64,000 nucleotides of DNA from Linyphia triangularis. Lineage: Eukaryota > Arthropoda > Arachnida > Araneae > Linyphiidae. The stretch covers positions 34,440,123 through 34,504,122 of the forward strand of contig OZ021732.1 in the NCBI GenBank assembly GCA_963978545.1, read 5' to 3'. Positions 17,695 to 64,000 of this stretch are shown here, in pieces (positions within the stretch are counted from its first letter, which is position 1; every line of letters starts with the position of its first letter). The position numbers and the translations under genes were made by a program. Below the pieces are notes generated by a model. That model made no database searches, was not told the origin of the DNA, and saw only the letters and a list, made by a program, of their open reading frames with translations.

Positions 17695-20600
17695 TAGTCC
17701 AGGGAAAAGAGACATTTTGCCTTGCGAAAGGTTATGTAGTTCTGATTTTTCAATATGTTATAAAGGTTTGTCTCGTGGTTTATAAACCAAGTTTTCGACC
17801 TCCTAACCCTTGTGCGTTCTCCGTGGTGCACCAAAAACTTAGCCGTTTTTCAGTTTATACGTCATAACTCTTTGACAATGCATCTTAGAAACAAATATTA
17901 TATTCAAAAGTTGTAGAATATTAAATTATCTACAACTTTTGTATACTAAGTTTTTTTGTAGACCTAATATGTAAATAGTTATGTCGCATCAAAGTCAAAA
18001 CTTTTTCGTAAAAATGCTACTTTTTTAAGATTTGTGTCAAGTTTTTTTATTATATCTTCAAAATGGTAAGTTTTAGAGAAAAAGTTTGTGTATAAAAATT
18101 GTAGAACAATAAATGTCCTACAAGTTTATTATATAAACTTATTTTCTAGGACTAATAACAAAGGAGTTACTCTGCTTTGTGTATTTTCAGTGGTGCACCA
18201 CAAAAAAAATACGTTTTTCAGTTTATACATCATAACTCTTTGCCAATACATCTTAGAAACAAACATTATATTCAAAAGTTGTAGAATATTAAACTGTCTA
18301 CAACTTTTGTATGCTAAGTTTTTTTGTAGACCTATTATGTAAATAGTTATGTCGCATCAAATACAAAACTTTTTCGTAAAAATGCTACTTTTTTAAGATT
18401 TGTGTCAAGTTTTTTGATGGTAGGGGTTTAAAATTAGCTTCTTAATGCATAGTTTGACAATTTTAATAAAAAAATAAAACAATATATACGTAATACTAAT
18501 GATAATGTAAAATAAAAAGTGGAAATATATTAAATAATGTATATATCTATATACAATAACGGTAATATCAATTTACCATTTTCGCCATGGTGCACCAAAA
18601 ACCTTCTGAATTCTGAAATTTTGAATTTTTTTCAGTACACCGATCATATCCTTTTTCCACTGCATTTTATAGGGGAAAAAATTATATTTTAGGTTGTAGA
18701 GTATTAAATTTTCTACCACTAATGTATGTGCAAAATTTGTTTTGTAGAACTATTCTATGAAAAACAAATTGTATGAAAAGCATCAAAGCAAAAACTCTTT
18801 AGTAAAAATACCATTTTAAGATTCTTGTCGAGTTTTTAGATGATATCTATAAAAGTATATAATAAAAATTGTAGAACCCTAAATTTGCTACGTTGTGTAT
18901 ACAAAGTTATTTTATAGGATTAATAACAAAAGAGCTACTTGGTAAGATCTAATATTAAAAACAGTTTCTTACAGCAAAGCCTGACAAGTTTGTTAAAAAA
19001 TAAAACAATATAGGTATTAAAATAATAGTATTATAAATCAAAAAATATAAATATTATAAAAATGCATATATCTATATATAATAATAGTAATATCAATAAA
19101 ACTTACAATTTAGAAAACTTAAAAATTCTTAAATTTAGTTTCGTTTAGCCACACGAAGGCTCGGCTAGTTCCTCCGCTACTTCTTGAATTAAGAGTTCTG
19201 TTTGGTCGTCTTCATCGTTGTCATCAATTATGATGTTCGTTATATTGTCACAGGTTTGTCCATGACAGTTTTTACATATTATGGAGCACTTGAGACCGGC
19301 CTTTCTACCCGCAGGCCTTAGTGCATCCTATGTTGCGCTGGCAGAAAATGTAGGTCAGAATTGATTGAGGAGCTCAATCCCTGATGGTTGTAATAGGAAG
19401 AAGCCCTTTACTGTCCTTCTACCACCCACAGACCAGAGGATTTTTCAATTAGCCCATCCATGTCTTTACTTGATGGTATGTGCGAAAGACATGGTGCGTA
19501 GTAGCTTCTTGGGTCGGAGGTAGCTTTGACAGATTTAACTTGCTCCCAGTTGTTGATTTGGAAAATTACTTATAACGCAAAGCATTTCAAGTTGTTGCCC
19601 TGTGACCACCAAAGAGAGCAACAAGAATGCTTGATACTGCTTCGGAGATCTTGTATCTCAAAAGATCTGTACCCCACGTAGTCAGCCACTTGAATGCAGT
19701 CTATTTCTCATTTTTATTTCCGAATGCAGAAATTTTTGGTGCATCACGGCAAAATGGTAAATTTTATATTACTATTATTATCTATAGATATGTACATTAT
19801 TTAATATATTTCCACTTTTTATTTTACATTATCATTAGTATTATATATATATTGTTTTATTTTTTTATTAAAATTGTCAGACTAAGCAGTAAGAAGCTAT
19901 TTTTAAACCCCTACCTATACATAAAATATTATAGGTTATCATCTCGTAAACCTTCAAAGAAGAGTAGCTCCTTAGTTATTAGTCCTAGATAGTAACTTTT
20001 TTGTATAAAACTTATAGAAAATTTATAGATCTACAACTTTTGTATTATATATTTTTTCCTACGACTTATTGTTGTGAAGATATAATTGAAAAACTCGGCA
20101 AAAAAATTAAAAAAGCAGCATTTTCACGAAAAGTTTTTACTTTGATGCTACGTAACTCTTTACATAATAGCTTTACAAAAGCAAATTGTTCACAAAAGTT
20201 GTAAAAAATTTAATACTTTACAACTTTTAAATTTAATGTTTGTTTTTAAAATGCATTGCGAAAGAGTTATGATCTATAAACTGAAAAACGTATTTTTTGT
20301 GGTGCACCACTGAAAATACACAAAGCAGAGTAACTCCTTTGTTATTAGTCCTAGAAAATAAGTTTATATAATAAACTTGTAGGACATTTATTGTTCTACA
20401 ATTTTTATACACAAACTTTTTCTCTAAAACTTACCATTTTGAAGATATAATAAAAAAACTTGACACAAATCTTAAAAAAGTAGCATTTTTACGAAAAAGT
20501 TTTGACTTTGATGCGACATAACTATTTACATATTAGGTCTACAAAAAAACTTAGTATACAAAAGTTGTAGATAATTTAATATTCTACAACTTTTGAATAT

Positions 20601-20815
20601 AATATTTGTTTCTAAGATGCATTGTCAAAGAGTTATGACGTATAAACTGAAAAACGGCTAAGTTTTTGGTGCACCACGGAGAACGCACAAGGGTTAGGAG
20701 GTCGAAAACTTGGCTTATAAACCACGGGACCGACCTTTATAACATATTAAAAAATCAGAACTACATAACCTTTTGCAAGGTAAGACCCGTTTTTCAGTCT
20801 CTATTCCCCGGACTA
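17695..20815. mobile_element. 3.1-kb element with long repeat-rich inverted ends
   Basis: The left arm (about 17695-18610) and right arm (about 19725-20815) are inverted copies of each other. The outer ends read TAGTCC and GGACTA, and a 3-bp ATT on each side may be the target duplication. Each arm contains tandem copies of a unit of about 365 bp, each carrying the palindrome GTGGTGCACCA (17823, 18190, 18587; mirrored at 20668, 20299 and about 19738). The unit also has CATAACTCTTTG and paired GTTGTAGA/TCTACAAC segments. The centre holds a decayed gene (19145-19560). I do not recognise the superfamily. A fold-back DNA transposon is the simplest reading. Confidence 0.75.
19145..19560 (-). pseudogene. 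Decayed gene with a cysteine-rich (CXC-like) C-terminus
   Basis: The minus strand between the inverted arms has codon-like stretches broken by frameshifts and stops. At about 19490-19395 it reads ATSDPRSYYAP and onward. After a stop and frameshift, about 19320-19145 encodes a segment rich in Cys and Lys (GRKAGLKCSIICKNC, then HGQTC). It ends in an acidic tail (DDNDEDD) and a stop at 19145-19147. The Cys spacing resembles the CXC (tesmin/TSO1-like) module found in some transposon-associated arthropod proteins; that match is from memory of the family pattern. It is probably the remnant of the element's own gene. No full-length product is possible. Confidence 0.5.
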
Positions 20816-20855
20816 ATTGATGAATAATAAAAATGAGATTTACATGAATCTGTTG

Positions 20856-25885: not shown

Positions 25886-27930
25886 CAGGCGCGTAGCCAG
25901 GGGGTGGCTGATGGGGCTGCAGCCCCCCCCCGAAATTTTCAAACCTCGAAAGTCAGAAATAGATCTATTTATGCTTGGATAATTAAAATTTGAAATTATT
26001 TTTTGAAATTGTATATAAGCCCATCAATTCAAAACGAAATCATTAGTATTTTTGGAGAGCTCATACAATCCGAAATAGTTAAAAAAAAGTATCAAATTCA
26101 GATTTTTTTCCATCATTGCCGACGAAACAGATATTTCTCAAATAGAACAACTGTCCTTATGCATAAGGTATATTGATGAAGCAACTGTACAAACTAGAGA
26201 AGATTTCCTTGTGTTTATTCCTGTCCTGGTGCAGGTCTTACAGCTACAATTGTAGAAGCCTTGCTAAAACTTGGCTTTGATTTAAACAAGCTACGTGGCC
26301 AAGGATACGACGGGGCGTCAAACATGCGTGGGCAATTTCGTGGTGTTCAAGCTATGGTGAGAGAAAAATACCCGAAAGCTGTATGTACCCATTGTGTATC
26401 TCATCACTCTCTAAATCTCTGCATATCTGACGCAACGAAAGTTCATGGCATCCGAAACGCCTTTGGTGTAAGTTCAGAAATTTTCAGTTTCTTTCATAAA
26501 TCTGCAAAACGAACAGATATTCTAAAAAAGAATATTAAAGACTTGAAACGTAACACAAAACAGAAGAAACTAAGATGTTATGTGAAACTCGTTGAATTTT
26601 ACGTCAGAAGCCATTTTAATGTTCAAGGAGTTTTTAGAGCCAATCATCGCTTCGTTAGAGGAAATCGAGGGCCTCGCAACAGACGATTCGTCCAAAAAGG
26701 CACACATTTTGTTGCAAAGCACATGCCAGTTTTCTTTTCTAGTATGTTTGTGCATCGCCAGTAAACTGCTCGGTTGCACATACAACCTATCCGATTATCT
26801 GCAAAGTACTAACATTGACTTGGCCAGTGCTTTGGGTGAAGTCAGCAACATGACGATGTTGTAAGAAATGAGAAACAACCACGTGGATAAGTTTAATTCT
26901 ATATATAATGAAGCTGAAACCTTAGCTGAAAAACATAATATAGAAGTCAAAACACCAAGAGTGTGTAAAATCCAAAAGAATCGCCCAAATATAGCCTACA
27001 AAACAACTGAAGAATACTATAGAATAATAATTTTTACTCCCTACTTAGATGATATGATACCTTCATTAAATGAGCGCTTTTTGCCTCATAAAGAAACAAT
27101 TTCTTCCTTGCAAAACCTTATTCCGCAACACGCTCTTGGGAAGAGTTTTCAAGATATTGAACCATACATCTCCTTTTATGAAGATGATCTTCTTACTTAC
27201 AAAGATGTGATTGAAGGCGAATGGGAGCTGTGGAAAAGAAAGTGGATGTCGGTCGAAATGTTACCAAACTAGCGATTGGGTCGCTGTATGAATGCGACCA
27301 AAACATCTTCACCAGCATATACGTTTTGCTCAAAATCCTATCCATTCTGCCAGTGTCAGCAGCCACAGCTGAGAGAAGTTTTTCTACTCTTCGGAGATTG
27401 AAAACTTTTCTTAGAAGTACTGCAAGCGAAAATAGCTTAACTGGACTGGCTTTGCTGAATATCCATAGGCAATGCTCAGTTTCAGACGAGATGGTCCTCA
27501 ACAATTTTGCCAGCAGTGGAACTGTTAGAAAATTCAATTTAACTTTGTAATGCCTCTTAATTAAATACAATTGTCCCATTATTAAACTTTATTTTAAATG
27601 CGATATTTCTTCTCAATTCCTTATTTTAAAAAGCATTTTTATTGTGTTTCATTAAAGCATTCTTAATCAAATATTATTCATGCATATTAATACTTAATGT
27701 CACGATTGTGAAAAGAAAGGGTCATTTGATTATTACTACATTTAACGAATAAATTTTCTTTCCAGTGAATGCTATATGTGCTAAAAGTATTACAATCCCA
27801 AAAAGTGTTTATTTGTTTTTTAGTTTGATTAATTTTGATTTGTAAATTATTGAATGATAATTATTGTTTCCGAAGTTGACATTTATAATTTCTCAGCACC
27901 CCCTGAAAAAAAATCCTGGCTACGCCCCTG
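25886..27930 (+). mobile_element. hAT transposon, decayed, with 8-bp target duplication
   Basis: The 2,045-bp element starts CAGGCGCGTAGCCAGG and ends CCTGGCTACGCCCCTG, an inverted pair. It is flanked by perfect 8-bp repeats CTTGATTT at 25878-25885 and 27931-27938. Just inside the ends are G-rich or C-rich runs. It carries a broken transposase gene of the ZMYM/P52rIPK-like hAT group on the plus strand. Confidence 0.93.
26033..27547 (+). pseudogene. hAT transposase (DUF4371 / hAT dimerisation type), frameshifted
   Basis: The transposase would cut and paste the surrounding element. From left to right the pieces are NEIISIFGELI at about 26033, then ADETDIS and LSLCIRYID in shifting frames, and RGQGYDGASNMRGQFRGVQ at about 26290, a hallmark of this RNase H-like core. 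CTHCVSHHSLNLC follows. After a frameshift at about 26580, a segment continues to a stop near 26862. A middle piece spans 26868-27272. After another shift comes the C-terminal dimerisation block at 27221-27550, with LPVSAATAERSFSTLRRLK. At least three frame breaks make it inactive. The N-terminal zinc-finger region expected in full-length relatives is missing, and the element is short for an autonomous copy. Confidence 0.9.
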
Positions 27931-46673: not shown

Positions 46674-46827
46674 CTCTTACTTTTTGGCTAAATTTAATGT
46701 ATTAGTAGCGTTGTCTAGTGATATGGAATTAAAATATAGTGTACAGAATCATTTTTTAGATTTATTTTACTTGGTCGGGGGATCGAACCTACAGTATTGT
46801 GGTAAAATAACTTTGTAGCTTAGTAAC
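46674..46827. repeat. Polinton left terminal inverted repeat
   Basis: It matches the reverse complement of 63773-64000. Shared stretches include CTCTTACTTTTTG, TATGGAATTAAA, TCGGGGGATCGAACCTACA and GTGGTAAAAT. It is about 74 bp shorter than the right copy because it has one instead of two copies of an internal repeat. Confidence 0.93.
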
Positions 46828-47971: not shown

Positions 47972-50900
47972 ATGGATAGTGTCTCTCAAGTGTTTGAAAC
48001 TTCATCAATGCCTCTAAATGATGAAGTTTTCGCTATGGCGGATTTTGGTGATATCACCGCCTCACAGCTAAGTGAACCATTCGACAATTTATCGTGTAAT
48101 ATTTGTTTCACGGCATTCACATTGCGGCGTAATCTGCTACGACATCTTAGATATCAGCATGGGAACAACAATAAAAAATGCCATATATGTGGACGGCAAT
48201 TTAGTAGAGTGGATACTTTGAAGGAGCATATAAAAACACACGAAAATAGAAAGCGTAAGCGGGAAGGTAATGATGAAGTGTCACATCTACCACCATTATC
48301 TTCAAATGTGAGTATTTATTGCTTATTTAAATTGTATGTGAAAAAAAACTTTATGGCTGAAATTTTTCAATGTAACTAATTTCTTATTTTATAGCTTAAG
48401 TGAACCGCTCATGTTTTTACTTAGAGTGTATGTATAAAAATGTTGTGTTTCTTTTTAGCTACCTGCTGTTGCGTCTACATCTCGTGCCCAACCAGTTCCC
48501 CCTAATATTCAGACCTCTTCTTCAAATGTAAGTATTTATTGTTTATTTAAATTGTATGTGAAACAATTTTTATGGTTGAAATTTTTCAATGTAACTAATT
48601 TCTTATTTTATAGCTTAAGTGAACCGCTCATGTTTTTACTTAGAGTGTATGTATAAAAATGTTATATCTTTCATTTCAGCTACATGCTGTTGAGTCCACA
48701 TCTCGTGTCCAAGCAGTTCCCTCTAATGTTCAGGCCTCTTCTTCAAATGTGAGTATTTATTGCTTATGTGAGTATGTATTGCTTATTTAAATTGTATGTG
48801 AAAAAAAACTTTATGGCTGAAATTTTTCAATGTAACTAATTTCTTATTTTATAGCTTAAGTGAACCGCTCATGTTTTTACTTAGAGTGTATGTATAAAAA
48901 TGTTGTGTTTCTTTTTAGCTACCTGCTGTTGCGTCTACATCTCGTGCCCAACCAGTTCCCCCTAATATTCAGACCTCTTCTTCAAATGTAAGTATTTATT
49001 GTTTATTTAAATTGTATGTGAAAATTTTTTTATGGTTGAAATTTTTCAATGTAACTAATTTCTTATTTTATAGCTTAAGTGAACCGCTCATGTTTTTACT
49101 TAGAGTGTATGTATAAAAATGTTATATCTTTCATTTCAGCTACATGCTGTTGAGTCCACATCTCGTGTCCAAGCAGTTCCCTCTAATGTTCAGGCCTCTT
49201 CTTCAAATGTGAGTATTTATTGCTTATGTGAGTATTTATTGCTTATTTAAATTGTATGTGAAAAAAAACTTTATGGCTGAAATTTTTCAATGTAACTAAT
49301 TTCTTATTTTATAGCTTAAGTGAACCGCTCATGTTTTTACTTAGAGTGTATGTATAAAAATGTTGTGTTTCTTTTTAGCTACCTGCTGTTGCGTCTACAT
49401 CTCGTGCCCAACCAGTTCCCCCTAATATTCAGACCTCTTCTTCAAATGTAAGTATTTATTGTTTATTTAAATTGTATGTGAAAATTTTTTTATGGTTGAA
49501 ATTTTTCAATGTAACTAATTTCTTATTTTATAGCTTAAGTGAACCGCTCATGTTTTTACTTAGAGTGTATGTATAAAAATGTTATATCTTTCATTTCAGC
49601 TACATGCTGTTGAGTCCACATCTCGTGTCCAAGCAGTTCCCTCTAATGTTCAGGCCTCTTCTTCAAATGTGAGTATTTATTGCTTATGTGAGTATTTATT
49701 GCTTATTTAAATTGTATGTGAAAAAAAACTTTATGGCTGAAATTTTTCAATGTAACTAATTTCTTATTTTATAGCTTAAGTGAACCGCTCATGTTTTTAC
49801 TTAGAGTGTATGTATAAAAATGTTGTGTTTCTTTTTAGCTACCTGCTGTTGCGTCTACATCTCGTGCCCAACCAGTTCCCCCTAATATTCAGACCTCTTC
49901 TTCAAATGTAAGTATTTATTGTTTATTTAAATTGTATGTGAAAAATTTTTTATGGTTGAAATTTTTCAATGTAACTAATTTCTTATTTTATAGCTTAAGT
50001 GAACCGCTCATGTTTTTACTTAGAGTGTATGTATAAAAATGTTATATCTTTCATTTCAGCTACATGCTGTTGAGTCCACATCTCGTGTCCAAGCAGTTCC
50101 CTCTAATGTTCAGGCCTCTTCTTCAAATGTGAGTATTTATTGCTTATTTAAATTGTATGTGAAAAAAAACTTTATGGCTGAAATTTTTCAATGTAACTAA
50201 TTTCTTATTTTATAGCTTAAGTGAACCGCTCATGTTTTTACTTAGAGTGTATGTATAAAAATGTTGTGTTTCTTTTTAGCTACCTGCTGTTGCGTCTACA
50301 TCTCGTGCCCAACCAGTTCCCCCTAATATTCAGACCTCTTCTTCAAATGTAAGTATTTATTGCTTGCTTATTTAAATTGTATGTGAAATTTTTTTTATGG
50401 TTGAAATATTTCAATGTCACTAATTTCTTATTTTATACCTTAAGTGAACCGATCATGTTTTTACTTAAAGTGTACGTATAAAAATGTTATGTCTTTCATT
50501 TCAGTCACCTGCTGTTGTGTCTACCTCTCGTCCCCAAGCAGTTCCCTTTGTTGGTTTACCCCCCCGTGGCCTACCCAGAAGTCTTTACACATTCGAAACT
50601 CAGTATGTGCATCCATGTGAGAAGGAGTGTATGGACTTGTTAGTGTTTCTTAGAACGAATAAGAGTGAACTACAAGAAAGAATTGAGCGTCTTGTTCGCA
50701 AAGGCTTAAAATGGTACATCTCAATCTCAATTCGCTTCACTCGAAGGATTTCTACAACTGAGAATGAAGAGTGTGTTGGCCACTTCAGATCAAATTGCGA
50801 TGTTACTCTTCAAGGAGAAAGCCCAAATATCGAGAAAGCTTATGAAAAAGTAAGTTCAATTTCTTTCATATATACATTTTAAAAGTTTATGTTCTATAGT

Positions 50901-53900
50901 TAAAATGCAAATTCCACTTTTGAAAAGATTAAAGTTTGGTGAAATTAAAACTATTTATTTTTATTCTTTATTTAGAAATGATCTTTAACATTAAAAGTTC
51001 AATACTTAACTGTAGCACAAATTTTTTTATTCTGAGGGTTAAATAAGCATTTAAAATGTTCATTAAGAAAAATCCTCGAATATATATTTGAGTGATAGAT
51101 TTTATGATTATACCTTTTTAGAAATAATATTTGAGAAATGATAGTTTTGTAGCATTTGTAATTCTACCTTATGTATTTGTTTTTTCAAACTTCTTTAACA
51201 AGAAAATTTAAGAAATATAAATATTTTTACTAATTCAAATCACTTACTCGAATGAAATATTTTTAATGTATGTTTAATGAACCTTTTAAATAATGTAAGT
51301 TAAACATTAACGATTTTATGGTAACATGTAATTTAAATTAATATGCATTTCTCTTTTAATATTACCAAGAAGAGTAATTGCTTTTCAAAACTTTTAATAG
51401 AGGATACATGTTTTTCAATAACTTCTTTAGAAGTTAGGTATTATAATTGCAGCTTTAAAATGTATTTAATTTTTTTAAATTAAATAATATAGCGAGAAAT
51501 TGAATAGAACATTGAAAAGTTTATATTCATTTATCAAATGTATAATGTCGTACATTTCTTTCTTTCTATTTTTTTTTCTCTCTTATTTAAAAGATTATAT
51601 CTTCGTATAAAGAATTTGTAAGCATGGGAACTGCTTGGATTAATGCTCGAATCTACTATGCTCAAGTGAACACTTGTTTCTGCACTATATAAACTATTGA
51701 ATTTTAAGTATGTGTTTTTCAAAACTGATTGTAACATACGTTTCATTTTAAAACTTGTAATCAAAAACATAGATTTTATAATAATAGCTTTAAAATTATT
51801 ATTTAAATATTTTCTTTGATATAATTATAAGAAATTTTAGAAAAAACAACAACAACATAGTATTATTTAAAAGGGAAGGAAATTTATAAAATAACTTTTA
51901 CTAAGAACTTTATTTTTATTTAACAGATTCTAAGTTCCTATGATGAATTTGAAGCCAAGGGTTCTGGATGGATTATTGACCGTATCCTGTATGCTGAACT
52001 AAAGACTGCTGCATACACACCCCTCGCTGCCTCATCATACATCCCCCTCCCTAAAAGTCTTCAAAGCAAAAAGGCCATTCTGAATTTACAAAATAGTGAC
52101 AGTAAGTGCTTTCTTTGGTGTGTCCTAGCATCTCTACATCCTATTAATCACACTAATCATGCCTATAGAATTAGTAATTATCAACCATTTGAGCAGGAAT
52201 TAAATTTAAATGGTATTGATTTTCCCACACCGATATCCCAGATTGAGAAATTTGAGACACAAAATAATATTTCAGTAAATGTTTTTGGTTTCGAAAAGGA
52301 AATTTTTCCACTTCGCATCACACGTTTGAATAGTGATAATCATGTTAATCTATTGGTGATATCGAAGGGGGAAAATCAACACTATTGTTTGATAAAAGAT
52401 TTAAATAGATTACTTTCTGAGTTGACGAAACATAAAAGTAGAGCATATTATTGTAACTACTGTCTTCATAGATTTGCGTTAGAAGAAAATTTAAATGAGC
52501 ATGTTATCGATTGTAAAGTACATAAACTGCAAAAAATTAAAATGCCGTCTGAACATAATAAATGGCTCACCTTTGATAAGTATAAATTTGCTTTGCCTGT
52601 CCCCTTCTCAATTTATGCAGACTTTGAGTCAATCCTAGTGAAAACGCATACTTGCTTCCCAAACCCAAAGTACTCTTCAACAGTTCCTGTTGCATATCAC
52701 GTACCATGTGGCTTTTCGTATATTGTAGTTGATGATCAAGGAAAAATGATAAAAGATCCTGTCATTTACAGAGGTGAGGATGCTGTTGATAAGTTCTTAT
52801 CCAGTCTACTTGAGGAAGAGGCTCAAATTGATAATATCCTCAAAGTTAAAAAACCCATGACTTTCACTGATGTTGACAAACAACATTTTAAGGAAAGTAC
52901 AATATGCCATATTTGTGAAAAGCCTCTTCGTGGTGATAAGGTCAGGGACCATTGCCACCTGAGTTCATTGTATAGAGGCCCAGCTCATAGCAAATGTAAC
53001 ATAGATTATCAAATTGCAACCCACATTCCTGTTATTATTCACAATTTGAAAAACTATGATGCACATTTAATTCTACAGGGCATTGGTAAAATCAAGGATA
53101 AAAACATTAGCTGTTTACCAAATAACAGTGAAAAATTTATTTCATTTTCACTTGGTAATTTACGCTTTCTGGACTCTCTCCAATTTTTAAATGCTTCTCT
53201 TGATAAACTTGTCGGAAGTTTAGAGAATAATCAACTAAGACTTACCAAGAAATATTTTGGAGAAAAGGCGGGTTTAATGATTAATAAGGGTTGTTATCCC
53301 TATGAATATATGGATAGCTTTCAAAAATTTGAAGAATCCTCTCTTCCGCCTCAACATGCATTTTTTAGCAATTTGACAGAAAGCCACGTTTCATTAGATG
53401 ACTACAAATATGCCCAACAAATCTGGAGAGAATTTAATTTAAAATGTTTAGGGGATTATCATAACTTATATGTTGTAACTGATGTTTTATTGCTTGCGGA
53501 CGTCTTTGAAAATTTTAGGCAATTTTGTCTCTCATTCTACAAATTGGATCCATGTCATTGTTTCACTGCTCCTGGTCTTGCTTGGCAAGCTTATCTTCGC
53601 ATGTCTGGTGTTAAACTAGAACTTTTAGTTGATCCAGATATGCATTTATTTATTGAACGGGGCATAAGAGGGGGTGTATCAATGATTTCGCATAGACATA
53701 GTGAAGCTAATAATAAATATATGGAAAACTTTAATCCTGATCTTGCCTCAAACTATATCATGTACTTGGATGCCAACAATCTATACGGTTGGGCTATGTC
53801 AGAGGCTCTTCCTACACACGCCTTTGAATGGCATAAAGGTCCAATAGATTTCATGAATGTAGCCGATGATTGTGAAGTAGGTTATATTTTGGAGGTAGAT

Positions 53901-55010
53901 TTAGAGTATCCTCAGTCTTTGCATGATGAGCATAATGATTACCCCCTCGCTCCAGAAAAGATGATAATTTCCCCACACATGGTTTCCCCCTACAATAAAT
54001 CTTTAGCTGAAAAGCTTAATTTAAAAGTGAACCCCGCTGTTAAACTTGTACCCAATTTGATGTCTAAAAGCAAATACATTCTTCATTATAGAAATTTGAA
54101 GCAGTACGTTTCACTAGGATTAAAAGTTACCAAAATTCACTCTGTTATTAAATTTAGACAAAGTGCATGGTTAAAGAAATATATTTCTTTTAATACTGAG
54201 CAGAGAAAATTAGCCCAAACCACATTTCAAAAAGACTTGTTTAAACTTTTAAATAATGCCGTATTTGGTAAGACAATTGAAAACCTTAGAAATAGAATGA
54301 AATTAGATTTAGTTACAAGTGAGAAAAAGGCCAAAAAATTAGTAGCATCTCCTAGTTTTAATTCATATAAGATAATTAATAAAGATTTAGTTTCAGTTGA
54401 ACGTAAAATCACATCACTTCTCCTAAACAGGCCAATTTACGTTGGATTCTCAATTTTAGACATTTCTAAAATTTTAATGTATAATTTTCACTACACATAC
54501 ATTAAACCTAAATATAATACACATGCTAAATTACTCTTTACAGACACAGATTCCTTGTGTTATAGCATAATGACTGAGGACATATACACTGACATGCATA
54601 CTGACTCCCATTTATTCGATTTTTCGGATTATCCTCCTAACCATGCACTTTATAGCAATGTTAATAAAAAAGTTTTAGGCAAAATGAAGGATGAATTATC
54701 CTCGGTCATTACTCTTGAATTTATAGGTCTTAAACCTAAAATGTATAGTTTGAAAAGTGTGCAAGATGAGAAGAAGACGGCAAAGGGTGAAAGTAAAGTA
54801 GTTGTAAAAAATAGTATTAGGCATAGTGATTATAAAAACTGTCTAATTTCGGAATGTAGAGACATAGCACGGACACATCGAATACTAAGCCTTAATCACG
54901 TTCTACAAACTGTCTCCTATTCAAAGTCGACACTGTGTCCATATGACACAAAACGATATGTACTAAGGGATGGCATTTCATCACTAGCTTATGGTCATTT
55001 TACTATTTAA
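47972..55010 (+). CDS. polB: Zinc-finger / protein-primed DNA polymerase B (multi-exon)
   Basis: Replicates the element by protein-primed synthesis. Predicted exons are 47972-48307, nine 69-nt exons (see the array entry), 50505-50849 and 51927-55010. All junctions are phase 0 with GT/AG borders, giving about 1,461 residues. Exon 1 encodes two C2H2 fingers (CNICF...H, CHICGRQF...H) and a basic RKRKR stretch. The last exon carries another C2H2-like finger (YYCNYC...HVIDC, about residue 610). It then has the exonuclease motif YADFE (about 665), a treble-clef-like DHCH...AHSKCN (about 775) and NLKNYDAHL. Polymerase motif A is YLDANNLYGWAM (about 1047), motif B KLLNNAVFGKT (about 1207) and motif C FTDTDS (about 1306). 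The acidic residues expected for catalysis are present. The fused zinc-finger N-terminus depends on the splice model; the long last exon is certain. A frame starting at 52326 would lack the conserved upstream part and begins at TTG, so I reject it as the start. Confidence 0.9.
48308..50504 (+). repeat. Tandem array of nine duplicated 69-nt exons with their introns
   Basis: Type A exons (begin LPAVASTSRAQ) are at 48459-48527, 48919-48987, 49379-49447, 49839-49907 and 50280-50348. Type B exons (begin LHAVESTSRVQ) are at 48680-48748, 49140-49208, 49600-49668 and 50060-50128. Each is 23 codons, phase 0 at both ends, preceded by TTTTTAG or ATTTCAG and followed by GTAAGT or GTGAGT. A+B pairs repeat every 460 bp (440 bp for the last), with introns almost identical between pairs. 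The array therefore grew recently by unequal crossing-over or replication slippage. The exon at 50505 begins with a related sequence (SPAVVSTSRPQ), as does the end of exon 1. The encoded linker is rich in Ser, Pro, Val and Gln and is likely disordered. Confidence 0.92.
50850..51926 (+). other. Large intron of the polymerase gene
   Basis: Starts GTAAGT after the exon ending at 50849 and ends TTTATTTAACAG before 51927. It is AT-rich and has no coding content. The flanking frames join in phase 0. Confidence 0.75.
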
Positions 55011-55140: not shown

Positions 55141-55622
55141 AAAAAAATATTTCTGTTTCCAAATTTTGTTTTTATTATTTATTACAAAAGCAGTAGCATT
55201 TTCTCACATACTTATAGAACTTAGTGTCATGAATATTGTTACTAAAATTTGGTTAAAGAGATTGCAATTTAATTAGTTATAAAAGTTTTCATAAATAACT
55301 TTTTGAGATTTGGTGATTTTACTTTAAAACTTAATTTCTATGCGGATGGTTTAAACATGTGTGCTTAAACTGCATGACTTTGTTTAAACAGGATTAGTCA
55401 TATAACCAGATCACGAGCCTTAGTCAACCATCGATGTGATGGTGACGTGCTCCTTATCAAGTCATGAGATAATCGATAGAGGTGACTGTACAAGTACATA
55501 CTATTCACGGGTTAAGGTTTGTTTAATCACGATATCATAAGTAAACATCATGTGATGTTCGAAGCTTGGCCATCGCGTGATATATATCGACCGCTGATAT
55601 CGTTATCATAGCTAGCTCTCTT
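55141..55622 (+). other. Intergenic region between polymerase and AlkB genes
   Basis: The first 230 bases are AT-rich. From about 55375 the sequence is less AT-rich and rich in short palindromes (ATCGAT, GATATC, TCATGA, CATGATG-type), which suggests a promoter region for the AlkB-like gene. Confidence 0.4.
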
Positions 55623-55629
55623 TATAAAA
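55623..55629 (+). promoter_or_regulatory. TATA box of the AlkB-like gene
   Basis: TATAAAA sits 73-79 nt before the ATG at 55702, in a palindrome-rich upstream region. Confidence 0.5.
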
Positions 55630-55701
55630 CTATCGTCACTGATCGAACTTCATTCCTTACTCGAGCTTGCTAAAAGAAGTTGCTGCTGCTCGTTAGTTAA
55701 A

Positions 55702-57087
55702 ATGGCTAACTTAAGTATTGAAAACATTGAAAAAATTTTCGATTCCGATTATTCTCAACAATTGCTTCTTGAATTGTTGGAGTACAAGTATCATGATTTG
55801 AAACTCTGTTTCAATGGACGAAGCTACACTCCTAAGAGGAAGGTCCTTGCATTTGGTGATTACGGTCTTAGCTATGCCTTTTCCGGAACGAGTGTCTCTG
55901 CCGAGCCATGGACTCCCACGCTACTAGCCATTAAGAAGGATGTGGAAAGTAAAACTGGACAAGAGTACAACTATGCCCTTCTCAATTTCTACCCGGATGG
56001 ATCTGCCAAGATTGGAGCCCACAAGGATGATGAAACGAGTCTCGACCCGACCTCTATCATCCCCACGCTCAGTCTTGGGGCCAGCCGCACCATGAACTTT
56101 ACCCGATTTCAATTCCAGTCCCATAAAGTTTTGCTGAAAAGTGGATCCCTTCTTCTCATGAAGCCGCCAACTAACAACTTTTGGAGCCATGAAATTCCTG
56201 CTGAGCCTGCTGTAACGGAGCCTAGAATCAGCATTACCTTCCGGAAACTCGTTAAGAAACCTCAAGATATTGGCCTCCACAAGTCTTCTTCACAAAAACG
56301 ATCGTTTGAGGAAGCGATCCCCGAAGATGACTGGTTGACCCGACTATACGCCCCAGCAAAGAAAAATAGTTTGTGCCTTAAAGAGTGGAACCTCGGGTTT
56401 GGTTTTGTAGTGTCCCTACATCAATTTGACTCTCGCGTTTTTATTCATATGTGTCAACATAGTAGCCAAGGAGGTACTCAGAAAATTGTAATGAACATGA
56501 GCACATTTGTGGACTTTATGAACAAAATCTTTCTCGTGAATACGAAATATTCAACTTCAAGCGTAGTGTGTAATAACCAACTCCTAATCTTATCACAGAA
56601 AGGTGAGCTACTTTTCAAACAAATTTTTAATTTTCAACTTAAAGACAGTTTTTTAAAAGTGGATGATAATAATCTCATTAAAATTAAAGACCTTATACCC
56701 GAAATGTGTGAAACAATTAAAGAATCTCTTTTAACTCTATTAAATTCTAAAATTCTTGTTAAATGTGCAGCAAATGTTAATGTACCTCCTAATGTAGATT
56801 TATTTAATGAATATGTCTCTGCTTTGCGACTTGAAGTTGAAACTAATGTTTTTAAGTTATTTCGTTGTGAAGGTTGCGTTGACAACGCAATGGGACAACA
56901 ATCACATACCTGTATAACTGCCTCGGTAGAAGATCAATTTTGGTATGTGGGTGACAGTGCAATTCTCATATTGAATGTAAATACTATCATTGAAACTTTG
57001 ATATCTAAAAATGTTATTCACTTATTTGATGAAGATTTCTTCAAAGTTATTTCTTGGAATGCTTTGAAAGATCATTTAAAATTTTAA
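55702..57087 (+). CDS. AlkB-like 2-oxoglutarate/Fe(II) dioxygenase with an unknown C-terminal half
   Basis: 461 residues. The first 190 form an AlkB-type fold that, in known relatives, removes alkyl groups from nucleic acids using iron and 2-oxoglutarate. NFYPDG (95-100) is followed by the metal-binding HKD (His107, Asp109). The distal His163 is in FWSHEIP, and the 2-oxoglutarate-binding Arg175 with Arg181 is in RISITFRKL. All expected ligands are present. The remaining 270 residues (about 195-461) match nothing I recognise. A Cys-rich stretch near residues 390-407 (CEGCVDNAM...HTC) might bind zinc. The gene lies between the polymerase and the convergent minus-strand block, inside the Polinton. 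AlkB genes are not part of the core Polinton set, so this is a captured accessory gene. It may repair alkylation in element DNA or modify RNA; that is inference. Confidence 0.88.
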   Translation: MANLSIENIEKIFDSDYSQQLLLELLEYKYHDLKLCFNGRSYTPKRKVLAFGDYGLSYAFSGTSVSAEPWTPTLLAIKKDVESKTGQEYNYALLNFYPDGSAKIGAHKDDETSLDPTSIIPTLSLGASRTMNFTRFQFQSHKVLLKSGSLLLMKPPTNNFWSHEIPAEPAVTEPRISITFRKLVKKPQDIGLHKSSSQKRSFEEAIPEDDWLTRLYAPAKKNSLCLKEWNLGFGFVVSLHQFDSRVFIHMCQHSSQGGTQKIVMNMSTFVDFMNKIFLVNTKYSTSSVVCNNQLLILSQKGELLFKQIFNFQLKDSFLKVDDNNLIKIKDLIPEMCETIKESLLTLLNSKILVKCAANVNVPPNVDLFNEYVSALRLEVETNVFKLFRCEGCVDNAMGQQSHTCITASVEDQFWYVGDSAILILNVNTIIETLISKNVIHLFDEDFFKVISWNALKDHLKF

Positions 57088-58248: not shown

Positions 58249-58866
58249 TTATTTAAATTGATACACTAGCTGTGTCTGATGAGGTAAAATTTTTGATCGA
58301 AGGCGCAACTCTTCTGGAGTTTCAGCCCGTAAATCTATAAAAAGATATGAATAGGGGTTTTTCGTGGCGTCTTCAAAGACTTCTTGAAACAATTTTACAT
58401 GTCTAGGAAATAGTTGTCTTCCGAGATGCGAGATTTGACTCAAATCTCGCCTATTTTTACAAAGTACCAAGTAATGCGTGTTCAATGTAATGTCACGCAT
58501 TTCCTTTCCTTTATAGAAGAAATTCTGTGTTATGAATATAACACTCAGGTTTAAATGATGACTACCTTTTGTAAAAAGATCAGTTAAATGACTGTTAGCA
58601 TTTGACATTAAATCATCAATTACGAAGAGTGTATTCTCCCCCAAAAATTCTTTAAATGTAGTTGGCAGACCTTCTACAAATGTTACATTGTCAATTTCGT
58701 CATATAAAGGCTGATGTATTCCGTAAAACCAAACAACCTTATCGGGAACGATTGAAAACATGCCATGCTTTTCACTTATCAAATCCCGCACAAAATAGCT
58801 TTTACCACAACCAGTTGGACCGGCAATTACCATAGTAAAAGGGTGTTGCAACTTTGGAAATTCCAT
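58249..58866 (-). CDS. FtsK/HerA-type genome-packaging ATPase (A32-like)
   Basis: About 205 residues from the ATG at 58866 (MEFPKLQHPF); the longer frame to 58887 begins with TTG. It would power DNA entry into the capsid. Walker A is GPTGCGKS (residues 16-23) and Walker B is FVIDDLM (Asp84, Asp85). A polar motif IFITQNFF follows, as in the sensor strand of this family. The size is typical of Polinton ATPases. It lies between the protease and the small basic protein genes. A TATTTAAA box lies 32-39 nt upstream. Confidence 0.93.
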   Translation of the reverse strand: MEFPKLQHPFTMVIAGPTGCGKSYFVRDLISEKHGMFSIVPDKVVWFYGIHQPLYDEIDNVTFVEGLPTTFKEFLGENTLFVIDDLMSNANSHLTDLFTKGSHHLNLSVIFITQNFFYKGKEMRDITLNTHYLVLCKNRRDLSQISHLGRQLFPRHVKLFQEVFEDATKNPYSYLFIDLRAETPEELRLRSKILPHQTQLVYQFK

Positions 58867-58897
58867 ATTGAATGAGAGACGATACAAAGTGTTACTG

Positions 58898-58905
58898 TTT
58901 AAATA
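58898..58905 (-). promoter_or_regulatory. TATA-like box before the ATPase gene
   Basis: TATTTAAA on the minus strand lies in the 45-nt gap between the protease stop (58912) and the ATPase ATG (58866). It is 32-39 nt before that ATG. Confidence 0.45.
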
Positions 58906-58911
58906 CTCTCT

Positions 58912-59388
58912 TTATTGATAAAATGGTGCTACAATTTTAAAGTGCTTGGTTACAAAATAATGCACTTTGATATCATTACATAGCTGATTGGGTACAAAAG
59001 ATAAGAGGATATCGTTCAGAGAACGACCATTACATTTAGAATATAGATAAAAAATACAATATTGTCCGCAAACGGAACTCGCATTCGATTGAAGTATCAT
59101 GGGATTAAACTCTACATGTTGATAATTTTTAACATAACTTGAAATTTTTCCAGTAAAATATGAGGGCGGGTTTCCGAACGAGTCAAAGAAGCAAATTTTT
59201 GTAGGCGAATCTATATAGAAAGCTACCCAATGACTACCTTCTTGATCAGACTTGTCAGTGTTGGCAATAAAACAGGCTGGAAAGTTTCGAATAGACGAGG
59301 GTAATCGATCACTTGAGAAAACGCCCAAGAATATATTCTTCGTTTTTGCATTTCCAGAAAGAATTCTGGTTATTTGAAAGGTATCCAT
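58912..59388 (-). CDS. Adenain-like cysteine protease (Polinton PRO)
   Basis: 158 residues. Members of this ULP/adenain family mature capsid proteins. The catalytic set is complete: His53 in GSHWVAFY, Asp69 in FFDSFG, Gln100 in LQSN, and Cys107 in VCGQYC. The length is normal for Polinton proteases. The ATG at 59388 overlaps the major capsid stop codon as TAATG, so translation may be coupled to the capsid gene. There is no TATA-like box at the spacing used by neighbouring units. Confidence 0.94.
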   Translation of the reverse strand: MDTFQITRILSGNAKTKNIFLGVFSSDRLPSSIRNFPACFIANTDKSDQEGSHWVAFYIDSPTKICFFDSFGNPPSYFTGKISSYVKNYQHVEFNPMILQSNASSVCGQYCIFYLYSKCNGRSLNDILLSFVPNQLCNDIKVHYFVTKHFKIVAPFYQ

Positions 59389-61241
59389 TAATTCGGAAAG
59401 TCACAGACAACGTGACGTGGTTTTGATATTTCAATCACGTTTTGAAACTCTGCGTAAATGAGAACGGATAATGTCTCCGAAATAGCTTCGGAAAATTTAA
59501 TTTCCACACGTAAATTTCCCTGGTGTTGTAGATTAAAATGTTCTCCGTCGCAAAGATCAGGATTTAGATCAAATGCGTAAAGTACATGTCCTCTGGTGTA
59601 TTCTTCTTGAGATAAGTAAATTCCCTTATCTTGATTAACCCTTTAAATCCCATGGAGTCAGCGTTGTGGGTTTCACAAAACCCCGATGACTTTCCATTCA
59701 TAAAAACTGGAAATGAACTCGCCCAACTCGTTCTCCTGTCTGCCACTCCTGGGATTGCTGTGGGGGGTCACTGTCGACCATTAAAAGATCATTACTATAT
59801 GTATACAGCCTGCAATAGGGGTGTGCGTTGGGTCATCTGCTTGATATGTCAGAGAATTTAGTTGGCGTCTTATCAATGAAACAAACGCCACCGCTAAGTA
59901 CATGACAAGATTCGCATAAAAGAAAAGTCCCTGACTATCTTACTCCATGTCCAAAGGGTGGGGCAGTTTGACATTGAGTACTTTAAATCCATGTCTCCCC
60001 TCTACATGCCCCACAATAGCCTATTGTTGAGGACCGTCACGCTTTAAACAACTAAGGCAGGGCAGTTCCCCTCACTTGAAAATATACGTTTACCCCTGGT
60101 TTACCCCTGCAACCGCCCGAAAGGCGGTTAGCTGGGAAATTCTCTACAAGGCGGTATAGGGCGGGTTGGGATTTAAAGTGTTAAATCCCGAGAATAAACT
60201 GTGATAGGCGCGAACGTAGTTGTTAGAATCGAAATTGAGTTCTAACGGTTTAGAAGGAACAGGTTGTCCGTCTACGTAGATGGATACAAAGTTTGCGTTA
60301 AAGTAAGAAAATAGGAACGGGTTCTTTGAATATTGTCCATTCATTGCTGCATTTCCTAAACAGGTTAGTATCACGCGCTTTGGCATGAGTCCAAGAAACA
60401 CATTATCTTGTAAAAAGGACCAACTGCCCTTGGCAATACTAAAAGTTTTGCAAATCACACGATCGATTGGATATTTGCAGGACGTCTTCTCTAAAGCTTT
60501 GGCATGTGCGATGGCAACAGCAGGGCTCACCTTCACTTTTCTTATAAACATAGAAGCATGTTCTAGAACTATCTTATAATCACCATCCTGTTTGGTTGAA
60601 ATTAAGCAAAATGACGATTTGCTGCGTATCATTTTAATTTTGATATCTACCAAGTTGATCATGAGACGATTCTGCTGGAAAATGTCGCAGTGAAGTTGAC
60701 CAATCATGTCTACGGTTCGACTGTCTTTGATAAGATTGTAGCGCGTCTTCATTCCGGCATCAGCACTTGCATTTAAGGGGTCTATAATATCAGGTTGGGT
60801 ATCTTTGTAGAATCCTTCACAGGTAAGTAGACTTTTCTTGGCGTCTTCTCCATAATTTAACAATGTCTCTATATAGGCTCTAAAAGGATAGGTGTTGCTT
60901 GCAGATGAGATATTTCTTTCATTTAAACTAACGTCCACTTGACTGAATAGCGAGTGTAGGAAAAGGTTTATGGGGGCAACAGGTTCATTTTCTGGCAGTT
61001 TAGAACCGTCTGATTTTGTCACTTTCACTTTAACATGTAGATAGGATGCAGCTAAGTCTACATATTCTTCACCACTCCCCGATATCGTGAACTCGATCGG
61101 TCCACCATCACGAACACTTGAAAGGGGATGAAATTCTACAAATTGCCCTTTTTCGATAACGGTTTGTGTAGGGGGAATTGAAAATAAATCCAATTCCGAC
61201 TTTACGCAAGGGGGAGAGTCTTTGTAGATAAAGGAAGCCAT
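59388..61241 (-). pseudogene. Major capsid protein (double jelly-roll), interrupted by an insertion
   Basis: Starts at the ATG at 61241 (MASFIYKDSP); the nine codons upstream belong to the previous gene's region. The first part runs to 60181 and then reads 13 or so foreign codons to a stop at 60144. The missing C-terminal part is at 59634-59388, in the same strand, ending in a TAA that overlaps the protease ATG. It is recognisable from the conserved Polinton capsid tail (EEYTRGHVLYAFDL, HFNLQHQGNLR). Between them is a 542-bp TTAA-flanked element. The two halves are otherwise undamaged, and their frames are compatible across one TTAA, so the insertion looks young. Total length without the insert would be about 435 codons, normal for arthropod Polinton capsids. 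As it stands the product is truncated and probably non-functional. Confidence 0.92.
59639..60180. mobile_element. piggyBac-like MITE inside the capsid gene
   Basis: The 542-bp segment begins CCCTTTAAATCCCA and ends with the reverse complement of CACTTTAAATCCCA. It is bordered by TTAA at 59635-59638 and 60181-60184. TTAA duplication and C-starting 13-14-bp ends are piggyBac traits. There is no transposase frame, so it must have been moved by a transposase made elsewhere. piggyBac excision is usually exact, so the insertion could in principle revert. Confidence 0.88.
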
Positions 61242-61663
61242 TAGGAGAAAATATCTCGTACTGCACACTTCTTCTTGGTTAAATGTGGAATGATATACTT
61301 CTTCTTCTGTTTACGCTTTTTATGCTTTTTCCCGCTACCAATCATAGTTTTAACTCGAGTGGCGGCTTTATCTGTTAACACATTTCCGGCTTCTTTGAGC
61401 CTTCGTTTGGCGGCTGTTTTAAAATCTTGACCTTGAGAAAGATCATTCATTAGGTTTACACCGCTGTGAAACATTTGTTTCCCAATAGCTTTAGCACCCG
61501 ATTTTAGAAGCGGTGCTGCAGCACGAAAAAATGATCTAAATAAACCTCCTAGTCCATATCCTCTCTGATAAGAACTTCCCTGATAATAATTCAAACCTCC
61601 TCCTGTTTGCTGTACATAATAATCTTCGAAAGATTTTTGACAGCACTGGTAAGGAACATACAT
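61241..61663 (-). CDS. Small basic putative virion protein (140 aa)
   Basis: Located between the minor and major capsid genes. The first 40 residues are rich in Tyr, Gly and Gln (QQTGGGLNYYQGSSYQ). A likely amphipathic helix follows (GLFRSFFRAAAPLLKSGAKA), then a Lys/Arg-rich C-terminus (SGKKHKKRKQKKK). In place and character it resembles the pX/pVI-type minor proteins of adenovirus-like capsids, which contact DNA or membranes; the assignment is inferred. Both ends show TAATG overlaps: its ATG with the minor capsid stop (61665-61661), and its stop with the major capsid ATG (61243-61239). Confidence 0.8.
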   Translation of the reverse strand: MYVPYQCCQKSFEDYYVQQTGGGLNYYQGSSYQRGYGLGGLFRSFFRAAAPLLKSGAKAIGKQMFHSGVNLMNDLSQGQDFKTAAKRRLKEAGNVLTDKAATRVKTMIGSGKKHKKRKQKKKYIIPHLTKKKCAVRDIFS

Positions 61664-62406
61664 TATGAGAGAGATTTCTGTCGAAAGTGTAACTTCACGT
61701 ACGAGCGTCCACGTTCAAATGGCGTTAAACACCCAGAGTGCGTCCTTATAACGATTTCCAAAGTCTCAATAAATTTCCGGTTAACAGGTAAGTAGTGTGG
61801 TCTATCATATTGTTCGCTAATCATCTCACCGTCTTGACCTCTTACTCTAACAACTCGAAGGAGAGGTGCTAAAACATCTCCTACAATTTGCGGTTCTACT
61901 ATATCCGTATAAATCATCAATACGCGATAATGTGCAGAGGGGGCAGCTACGAATGGACCAACAACAGTTGTTTCTATACTTGCGTCAAACGAAGTTATTT
62001 CCATAGGTTCGAATCCAAGCATTTCAGCAAGTCCTTGATATAATATGAGTTTCGCATTATTTTTTACAGTTATCTGAACACGCTTCGTGACAGGATTATA
62101 ACTTGTAACAATTTTATCATCGTGTTCTTTCACATAAATAGCCTTTAAAATATCAGGAACCGTCTCATAACAACCCGGAGGTAATCTTCTTCCTACCTCT
62201 AACTTTCCACTCGTCTCGAATCCAATTAAATTATTTTGATGATTCACATTATACCAAGTATGTGGGTATAAAAACTCTACCATTCCAACTTCCCATTCTC
62301 CTTTCAATTCAATTGGAACGGATAGACGAGTGATAAAATGAGAAATTTTATTCTCGGGAAAATATGACATGGAACTGTCCGAAATGAGTGTTATGTAGAA
62401 ACTCAT
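61663..62406 (-). CDS. Minor capsid (penton-like) protein
   Basis: About 247 residues from the ATG at 62406 (MSFYITLISD). An in-frame ATG eight codons upstream (62430) is possible but lies closer to the TATA-like box. It matches the Polinton minor capsid family expected to form single jelly-roll pentons at capsid vertices: SSMSYFPENKISHFITRL near the start, GEWEVGMVEFLYPHTWYNV, then a run of beta-rich sequence with MLGFEP and YTDIVEPQIVGD. It is first in a four-gene structural block (minor capsid, small basic protein, major capsid, protease), with a TATA-like box overlapping the integrase stop. Confidence 0.9.
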   Translation of the reverse strand: MSFYITLISDSSMSYFPENKISHFITRLSVPIELKGEWEVGMVEFLYPHTWYNVNHQNNLIGFETSGKLEVGRRLPPGCYETVPDILKAIYVKEHDDKIVTSYNPVTKRVQITVKNNAKLILYQGLAEMLGFEPMEITSFDASIETTVVGPFVAAPSAHYRVLMIYTDIVEPQIVGDVLAPLLRVVRVRGQDGEMISEQYDRPHYLPVNRKFIETLEIVIRTHSGCLTPFERGRSYVKLHFRQKSLS

Positions 62407-62440
62407 GATGACAAATGAGTCTTGAAACATGTGTAAGCAA

Positions 62441-62448
62441 TATTTATA
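62441..62448 (-). promoter_or_regulatory. TATA-like box for the structural gene block
   Basis: TATAAATA on the minus strand contains the integrase stop codon (TAA at 62446-62444). It lies 35-42 nt before the minor capsid ATG at 62406. Confidence 0.5.
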
Positions 62449-63487
62449 GGGTTAGTAAGTTAGAAGCGGGAATCCATTGATTAAACTTATCGAGATAACC
62501 TCGGTATTTCACAAAATATTCCATTTTCTTCTTACGCATGCGTTTTCTTAAAACTTTTTCGATTGGAAATTCATCTTTCATTGTAACCTTTTGCAACTCT
62601 TGCGCATAAAACGTCCCTTTTATAGACTCTCCTAATAAATCATTCACTCTATACACTGCAGGCTGCCTCTTGACACATTCTGTTATAAGAAACAATTCTT
62701 CCGTCCAATTCGTTTCATACCCCTTTTCAAAGGTTAATTTTTTCTTTGAAATGCGAACTACGTCATCCGCATTAAATACACATTTGGATTTAGGCAAATT
62801 CTCCATATCTCCATAGAGGGTGAACCAAACATCCTGTTCATTTTCGGCATTCACTTCCACGGGAGCTCGCTTGATACTTCTATGATAAGTGTGATTGTAA
62901 CTTTTCACTAAATCTTGTAATACATCAATGTATTTATGTGTATTTTTAGCAGTAAAGTACTTCCACATTTTAGTTTTAATACTTCGATTCCAGCGTTCAA
63001 TGATGGATGCTTTTGACAAATTGTAAGTTGTGAAAAATCTAATCCCCTTCTTTTTTAAAAAGGCTTGAAACAGCTTATTTTTAAATTCTGTTCCTTGATC
63101 AGTCTGAAGTGATTTTGGATTTCGTTGACTCAATATTATTTGAAAAGCCTTAACAATGTCTACACCCCTCTTTTGTTTCAAAGGTACTATCCACCCATGC
63201 TTTGATAGTACATCAATAATTGTTAAAAGATAGCGATAACCATCATTAAACTTTTGTAAACTTGTCATATCCACTAAATCCGCTTGCCATTGTTGATCGA
63301 TATTATGAACTATTACACGATTCGTAGGAAATTTATGACGAATGGGCTTGTGTAGAGTATACGCATCCACTCCCTTCAACCATTTCTGTATCGTTTTCTT
63401 GGGAACCTTCCTGTCCGCAGCACGGTATAAGGCGTCGATACCGCCGAAGCTTGCTACGCTTGCGGGGTCTTGATACGTTGTGTTCAT
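62444..63487 (-). CDS. Polinton integrase (rve) with C-terminal chromodomain
   Basis: 347 residues. It inserts the element by a DDE mechanism like retroviral integrases. The catalytic triad is Asp70 (WQADLVDM), Asp130 (LQTDQGTEF) and Glu164 (SIIERWNRSI), with near-canonical D/E spacing. A C-terminal chromodomain-like module (about 304-345: EKVLRKR...EYFVKYRGY...FNQWIPASNL) could target chromatin marks. The frame is intact. The start MNTTYQDPAS at 63487 is the only suitable ATG. It is 51 nt downstream of the small membrane protein gene. A weak TATA-like TACTTAAG lies 35-43 nt upstream. Confidence 0.95.
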   Translation of the reverse strand: MNTTYQDPASVASFGGIDALYRAADRKVPKKTIQKWLKGVDAYTLHKPIRHKFPTNRVIVHNIDQQWQADLVDMTSLQKFNDGYRYLLTIIDVLSKHGWIVPLKQKRGVDIVKAFQIILSQRNPKSLQTDQGTEFKNKLFQAFLKKKGIRFFTTYNLSKASIIERWNRSIKTKMWKYFTAKNTHKYIDVLQDLVKSYNHTYHRSIKRAPVEVNAENEQDVWFTLYGDMENLPKSKCVFNADDVVRISKKKLTFEKGYETNWTEELFLITECVKRQPAVYRVNDLLGESIKGTFYAQELQKVTMKDEFPIEKVLRKRMRKKKMEYFVKYRGYLDKFNQWIPASNLLTL

Positions 63488-63538
63488 TACAACAAGAAAT
63501 TTTATTAATTCTTATCTGTATCTTAAGTAATAACATCT

Positions 63539-63740: not shown

Positions 63741-63793
63741 ATGACTTCATAGCCCAGTTACTAAAACGACAAGTTACTGGGCTATGAAGTCAT
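63741..63793. repeat. Perfect 18-bp stem hairpin at the inner edge of the right repeat
   Basis: ATGACTTCATAGCCCAGT (63741-63758) and its exact reverse complement (63776-63793) are separated by 17 nt. The inner arm belongs to the terminal repeat; the outer arm is present only on this side of the element. Confidence 0.9.
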
Positions 63794-64000
63794 TTTACCA
63801 CGAGATTGTAGGTTCGATCCCCCGACATAGTAAAAGAAATCTAGAAAAATAACTCTGTAAAACAATATACTTTAGTTTCCCATCCCTAGATGGCACCACC
63901 ATCTTAAACTAATTCTCAAATATAAACTTAGAAAAATAGCTTTAATTCCATAACACTAGATGGCGCAACCATTACATTAAACTTAGTCAAAAAGTAAGAG
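63773..64000. repeat. Polinton right terminal inverted repeat (cut by window edge)
   Basis: Inverted match to 46674-46827. It carries two diverged tandem copies of a unit of about 74-88 bp (each with TAGAAAAATA, TTCCAT or TTCCCAT, TAGATGGC and TTAAACT), where the left repeat has one. GGTTCGATCCC at 63811-63821 matches a tRNA B-box. Confidence 0.93.

Follow-up and report, generated by a model that had tools for sequence, protein, structure and literature searches.

What is the ladder of nine near-identical mini-exons that lies within a predicted polymerase gene of the spider Linyphia triangularis, how could it have arisen, and does it contribute to the protein? In the window (the whole stretch of DNA that was analysed, 64,000 nt of contig OZ021732.1), the ladder stands between an exon encoding zinc fingers and the exon encoding the polymerase, and an initial annotation had read it as a recently expanded linker of adjustable length in a Polinton. 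The features concerned are the following.

46674..46827, no strand: left terminal inverted repeat, segments of which match the reverse complement of 63773-63890 and 63941-64000 at 80-85%
47972..48307, + strand: exon 1, with the ATG and two C2H2-type zinc fingers (PF00096, 6e-10), ending in ..LSSN, phase 0
48308..48458, + strand: array intron I0, the first of nine (I0-I8), with the 87-nt core and an internal acceptor
48459..48527, + strand: mini-exon A1
48680..48748, + strand: mini-exon B1
48919..48987, + strand: mini-exon A2
49140..49208, + strand: mini-exon B2
49379..49447, + strand: mini-exon A3
49600..49668, + strand: mini-exon B3
49839..49907, + strand: mini-exon A4
50060..50128, + strand: mini-exon B4
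50280..50348, + strand: mini-exon A5
50349..50504, + strand: last intron I9, diverged, without the two internal TAG acceptors
50505..50849, + strand: post-array exon in phase 0 (115 codons), homologous to the head of the mini-exon over its first 44 nt
50850..51926, + strand: next predicted intron, GTAAGT..AACAG, 1077 nt, phase 0
51927..55010, + strand: polymerase exon, open to the stop, whose PolB region matches adintovirus PolB

The layout proposed at the outset was borne out by the coordinates and by comparison of the copies: there are nine 69-nt, phase-0, exon-like segments at 48308-50504, in which A (five copies) and B (four copies) alternate strictly, and the end coordinate given for the array, 50504, is the exact end of the last intron, I9. 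Every mini-exon, as had been claimed, comprises 23 stop-free codons in phase 0 with both neighbours (LPAVASTSRAQPVPPNIQTSSSN / LHAVESTSRVQAVPSNVQASSSN). Across their 69 nt the A copies are identical (5/5), as are the B copies (4/4). The annotated 460-bp spacing holds for same-type exons generally, but not for A4 to A5, which are 441 bp apart; as a further small correction, the exon that starts at 50505 opens with a diverged, partial copy of the mini-exon. Tandem Repeats Finder delimits the repeat at 48306-50547 (period 460, 4.9 copies, 97% matches), and its score of 4168 rules out a chance repeat; the middle three 460-bp units differ pairwise by 1-2 substitutions and no gaps.

The splice sites are also conserved, as the annotation had it. 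All ten array donors are GTRAGT (the introns start with GTGAGT or GTAAGT) and all ten acceptors have a pyrimidine-rich tract (10 of 12), and each mini-exon is preceded by ..TTTTTAG or ..TTTCAG and followed by GTAAGT or GTGAGT. On the + strand GTRAGT is found at 11/11 predicted donors in 47972-51926 and at four other places therein, three of which are copies of a 19-nt donor duplication; the other 60 kb hold 24. The G+C content of the mini-exons is 0.46-0.48, versus 0.22-0.25 in the introns. The copies of exons and introns alike are near identical, and unless the assembly is in error the array is genuine and its expansion recent, as originally suggested.

The surrounding element, by the features tested, is a Polinton of the adintovirus type, in agreement with the first reading: it has a chromodomain integrase, an adenovirus-type protease, a packaging ATPase, terminal inverted repeats and a PolB homologous to adintovirus PolB. 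It spans from ≈ 46.67 kb to beyond the window end, which cuts the right inverted repeat (63773-64000); the left repeat may begin further left. On the minus strand lie the integrase, with an rve domain and a C-terminal chromodomain (62447-63511; PF00665 3.1e-12, PF00385 2.6e-9), the packaging ATPase (58252-58911; PF02456 3.2e-6, PF04665 4.9e-6) and the adenovirus-like protease (58915-59400; PF00770 5.6e-7). Two further minus-strand ORFs, 60147-61310 and 61666-62451, have to our eye the look of capsid genes and are candidates for such; neither has a match in Pfam or PHROGs. On the + strand a 491-residue ORF adjoins the polymerase (55612-57087), with an AlkB-like 2OG-Fe(II) oxygenase domain at residues 67-211 (PF13532 3.5e-23) and a long remainder. 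Outside the element, 17694-20816 contains an inverted repeat of ≈ 730 bp at 92% and, at 19955-20677, a tandem duplication of 366 bp, and is probably a further mobile element; the ORF pieces at 26198-27272 (+) and 766-1149 (-) look, judged by eye, like a relative of hAT-type transposases and a reverse transcriptase remnant. According to a passage in PMC11071296, an OTU-like domain N-terminal to the polymerase is a defining feature of Polintons/Mavericks of the adintovirus type; the domain searches show none here. A double jelly-roll major capsid protein, and terminal inverted repeats with a 6-bp target site duplication, also characterise the type.

Of 7995 candidates scored against the polymerase (51924-55007), 4761 are relatives at E ≤ 0.001, the top one being 63% identical. 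P0019, named as the PolB of Parasteatoda house spider adintovirus, is 52% identical across the whole query; named polymerases of Araneus ventricosus (61%) and Nephila pilipes (64% over 81% of the query) are also found, and among the best 120 of the 4761 relatives the closest named polymerases are those of spiders (Araneus, Nephila). The PolB region has no Pfam match at E 0.01, and a sequence search of the PDB gave three matches, none better than E 0.12. In viral_contigs, a single-protein polymerase query found no relative; a profile search found one distant locus (42%) at which the polymerase is a single 1299-residue ORF. This locus, at 3329-7228 of an IMG/VR contig (L002), has a distant Polinton-like polymerase and an adjoining ORF that looks integrase-like by eye. 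The exon pattern matched one viral contig (L001) at a single stretch of 20 nt, and the 801 bases around that stretch contain no array; a region search with P0002 returned P0002 itself and one other zinc-finger protein.

Among the best 120 of the 4761 relatives, the ORFs of 15 reach ≤ 20 residues upstream of the third-exon start, those of 17 reach 21-99 and those of 88 at least 100. The 15 include four close relatives, P0001, P0003, P0005 and P0015, with starts at -15, -32, -18 and +5, which would fit an intron shared at this position; some of the relatives' sources may be spliced or annotated, and ORF starts do not settle intron positions.

The origin of the mini-exons can be sought in their two ends. 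Over the first 44 nt, the head of the mini-exon matches the exon at 50505 at 36/44 positions for A and 35/44 for B; on neither strand does any other place in the window, the array aside, exceed 24/44 for A and 23/44 for B. At its other end the mini-exon closes on 9 nt, TCTTCAAAT, that also close exon 1 directly before its donor. The longer similarity to exon 1 is weak (16-17/27); exon 1 is absent from the best six places in a scan of the window with the 25-nt tail, and for the last 12 nt plus GT another place in the window matches better (13 versus 12 of 14). The tail match counts only by virtue of its position exactly at the donor. Together, the head and tail homologies fit a birth of the mini-exon by tandem duplication across an intron, followed by divergence into A and B and then by amplification of the 460-bp dimer. 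Such a duplication is the simplest history; it is well supported at one end and suggested at the other. I9 is the most diverged of the introns, as expected if it is the original one.

A protein found elsewhere is of interest here. P0121, the sole protein retrieved by a search with exon 1, is a 120-residue ORF on a 1074-bp contig (source tag lgn). It is identical to exon 1 at 112/112 residues, keeps the SSN at the end of exon 1, and then runs through the donor as VSIYCFLI-stop. One edit is needed for I9 to encode VSIYCFLI, and 3 to 5 for each of the nine array introns. The nearest intron is I9, so there is a further copy or allele whose first intron resembles I9. The contig may come from an unexpanded copy, which the match fits but does not prove; alternatively, its array could merely start with a different intron.

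In order, the introns I0-I9 measure 151, 152, 170, 152, 170, 152, 170, 152, 151 and 156 nt. Identity is 99.3-100% among the five introns preceding A exons, 98.0-100% among the four preceding B exons, and 90.7-92.0% between the two types; I9, which is left out of these ranges, is 84-91% identical to the others. I2, I4 and I6 (three of the five introns preceding A) carry the 19-nt donor duplication, GTGAGT..GTGAGT, at 48749, 49209 and 49669; splicing from its second donor would lengthen the exon by 19 nt and throw it out of frame. All nine array introns, A and B types alike, share an 87-nt core without any difference. Between the A and B units, all 22 differing columns of the 226 aligned (4 of them empty for this pair) fall outside the core, and the acceptor tracts are five substitutions and a 2-nt indel apart; an identical run of 87 as the longest has a permutation p of 0.0003, on the assumption of evenly scattered differences. 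A 50-nt pattern from the core had no match in genome_contigs or viral_contigs. An unusually stable fold of the intron RNA was considered and rejected, the z-scores of the three introns folded being 1.37 (I0), -0.53 (I1) and -0.20 (I9).

The core contains a branch-point-like CTAAT, a pyrimidine tract and a TAG, i.e., the elements of an internal acceptor. The first internal TAG lies 64 or 66 nt upstream of the authentic acceptor in 9/9 array introns, and phase-0 joining at it gives, again in 9/9, CTT AAG TGA (Leu-Lys-stop). A second TAG is likewise present in all nine: in the five introns preceding A it lies 34 nt before the acceptor and would shift the frame, and in the four preceding B it lies 36 nt before it, and its use would extend the reading frame by 12 stop-free codons. 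These acceptors could end many spliced products early. I9 differs from the core at six positions, two of which abolish both TAGs, an observation made after the fact; the one intron obligatory for any transcript reaching the polymerase is without these internal acceptors. Either the original intron was kept clear of rival acceptors, as its splicing is obligatory, or the array introns may have acquired internal acceptors once these had ceased to matter, or else the internal acceptors would act as a switch.

What the array would do to the protein can be judged from the linker. The third exon starts 137 residues after the last zinc finger if the array is left out, and 344 residues after it with all nine exons. 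The same spacing (C2H2 motif by regular expression, third-exon start by BLASTP anchor) is 97-228 residues, with a median of 137, in the 40 relatives that have an upstream C2H2 motif among the best 120 of 4761. The full-array spacing thus exceeds that of all 40, while the array-free spacing equals their median, so the array comes on top of a linker of ordinary length. When the relatives' linkers were scanned crudely for repeats, short internal ones were flagged in P0012 (9 residues) and P0089 (17 residues), and no array comparable to this one. Of the proposal of an adjustable linker, then, the position stands, in a zinc-finger-to-polymerase linker that varies in length among relatives; against adjustment speak the acceptors with a stop in the array introns and an array-free length that is already the median.

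Coding constraint on the mini-exon peptide was looked for in the comparison of A with B and was not detectable. The two differ at 8/69 sites, seven of the changes being nonsynonymous and one synonymous (49.2 and 19.8 sites); counts this small are not evidence of positive selection.

The explanation towards which we lean is that of a recent tandem exon-plus-intron array in the linker of a zinc-finger/PolB gene of a Polinton of the adintovirus type, made in four steps. To begin with, going by the homologies at the two ends, a tandem duplication that broke once within the exon 1 tail and once ≈ 44 nt inside the following exon would have spanned the intron, and its product would have been a chimeric 69-nt exon already equipped with acceptor, donor and phase 0 on both sides. 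A second duplication, with divergence, would then have given types A and B. In the third step copies of the 460-bp A+B dimer, which are near identical, accumulated and were homogenised, presumably through unequal crossing over or gene conversion. In the predicted fourth step, transcripts may include anything from 0 to 9 mini-exons with the frame of the polymerase unbroken. Because the units are in phase 0 and the linker is poorly conserved, we propose that the array is tolerated and its copy number free to drift; a tuned function is not required. The degrees of confidence expressed here and below are not exclusive shares, the first three steps being common to this explanation, to a passive intron and to a splicing switch.

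The serious rival to an adjustable linker is a passive role, possible in our view though rather doubtful, in which the array is minisatellite-like and sits in one long intron from the donor at 48308 to the acceptor at 50505, its mini-exons rarely or never used. Skipping the array would give just the 137 residues that are the relatives' median, the peptide has no sign of constraint, and the array introns hold rival acceptors, the first of them closely followed by a stop, of which I9 has none. On the other hand, all ten donors remain GTRAGT and all ten acceptors pyrimidine-rich despite the divergence of the A and B tracts, and every mini-exon keeps its 69 nt, its open frame and a G+C content about twice that of the introns. 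This retention of splice sites, length, frame and composition is weak evidence, because recent copies are near-identical in any case. An error of assembly, by which one or two real units were repeated, we think very improbable: units 2-4 differ from each other by only 1-2 bases and could be produced or collapsed by an assembler, but each of the five units is distinct from the rest, the 19-nt duplication is confined to I2, I4 and I6, I2 has a G-to-T change, I1, I3/I5 and I7 differ in their poly-A/T stretches, and the last unit is diverged.

The same acceptors can also be read as repeated poison acceptors by which splicing would switch between a short DNA-binding protein and the polymerase, in a ratio dependent on the number of units. 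The core that is identical in nine introns and across both types, its CTAAT, pyrimidine tract and TAG, the stop met upon joining in 9/9, and the removal of exactly the two TAGs by two of the six core differences of I9 all speak for this. However, homogenisation by gene conversion yields an identical core without selection, the permutation presupposes an even scatter of differences, the observation on the TAGs in I9 is post hoc, and the second TAG is not uniformly poisonous, being in frame and stop-free before the four B exons, so that the switch rests on the first. We consider it improbable. We give as little credence to its combination with the linker, in which an array of variable copy number would supply in-frame linker isoforms, the poison acceptors would supply a zinc-finger-only product, and the number of units would set how much DNA-binding protein is made relative to the full polymerase.

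The array and its element can be set against several known systems. The element resembles Polintons/Mavericks and adintoviruses in its chromodomain integrase, protease, packaging ATPase, terminal inverted repeats and a PolB 52% identical to that of Parasteatoda house spider adintovirus. Unlike the genes of intact vertebrate Mavericks, which a passage in PMC8097293 describes as intronless, its pol gene has 11 predicted introns and the exon array, and it would signal spliceosomal introns in Polintons of this group. Some polinton-like viruses have group I introns in another gene, as a passage in PMC12220804 states. The micro-exon genes of Schistosoma have many short exons interspersed regularly with introns, and alternatively spliced isoforms are reported for them; their products are secreted proteins, and near-identical tandem exon-intron copies are not part of their description in the passages of PMC10526429 and PMC10399815 concerned. 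A literature search at the level of listings and passages found no published Polinton with an exon array, which is weak evidence of absence; with the same reserve, we found no described exon array in the polymerase of a mobile element, whereas alternating homogenised arrays are known from silk genes of Argiope.

Of the published arrangements that we found, these silk genes come nearest. In the dragline silk genes MaSp2.1a and MaSp2.2a of Argiope, as set out in passages of PMC9779670, two exons and two introns form the tandemly repeated unit, and the two intron types alternate and are near-identical within type, on an average that excludes the first and last introns. The authors propose unequal crossing over, think that alternative splicing alters only length, and write that no further eukaryotic gene in which two homogenised types of intron alternate was known to them. 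Here too A and B exons and introns alternate (9 exons and 10 introns, a likeness of structure), and the introns are near-identical within type at 98.0-100%, I9 left out. The mode of evolution is probably shared. Unlike the silk genes as those passages describe them, which are host genes whose repeats form the bulk of a structural protein, this is a small array of 69-nt chimeric exons in the linker of a replication polymerase of a mobile element. If the number of units varies among copies or alleles, a single locus would display how exons are born step by step through duplication across an intron, beginning with one intron and arriving at nine additional exons, in a gene with a known range of linker lengths among its relatives; it would also be a further alternating homogenised array of exons and introns, after those of the Argiope silk genes.
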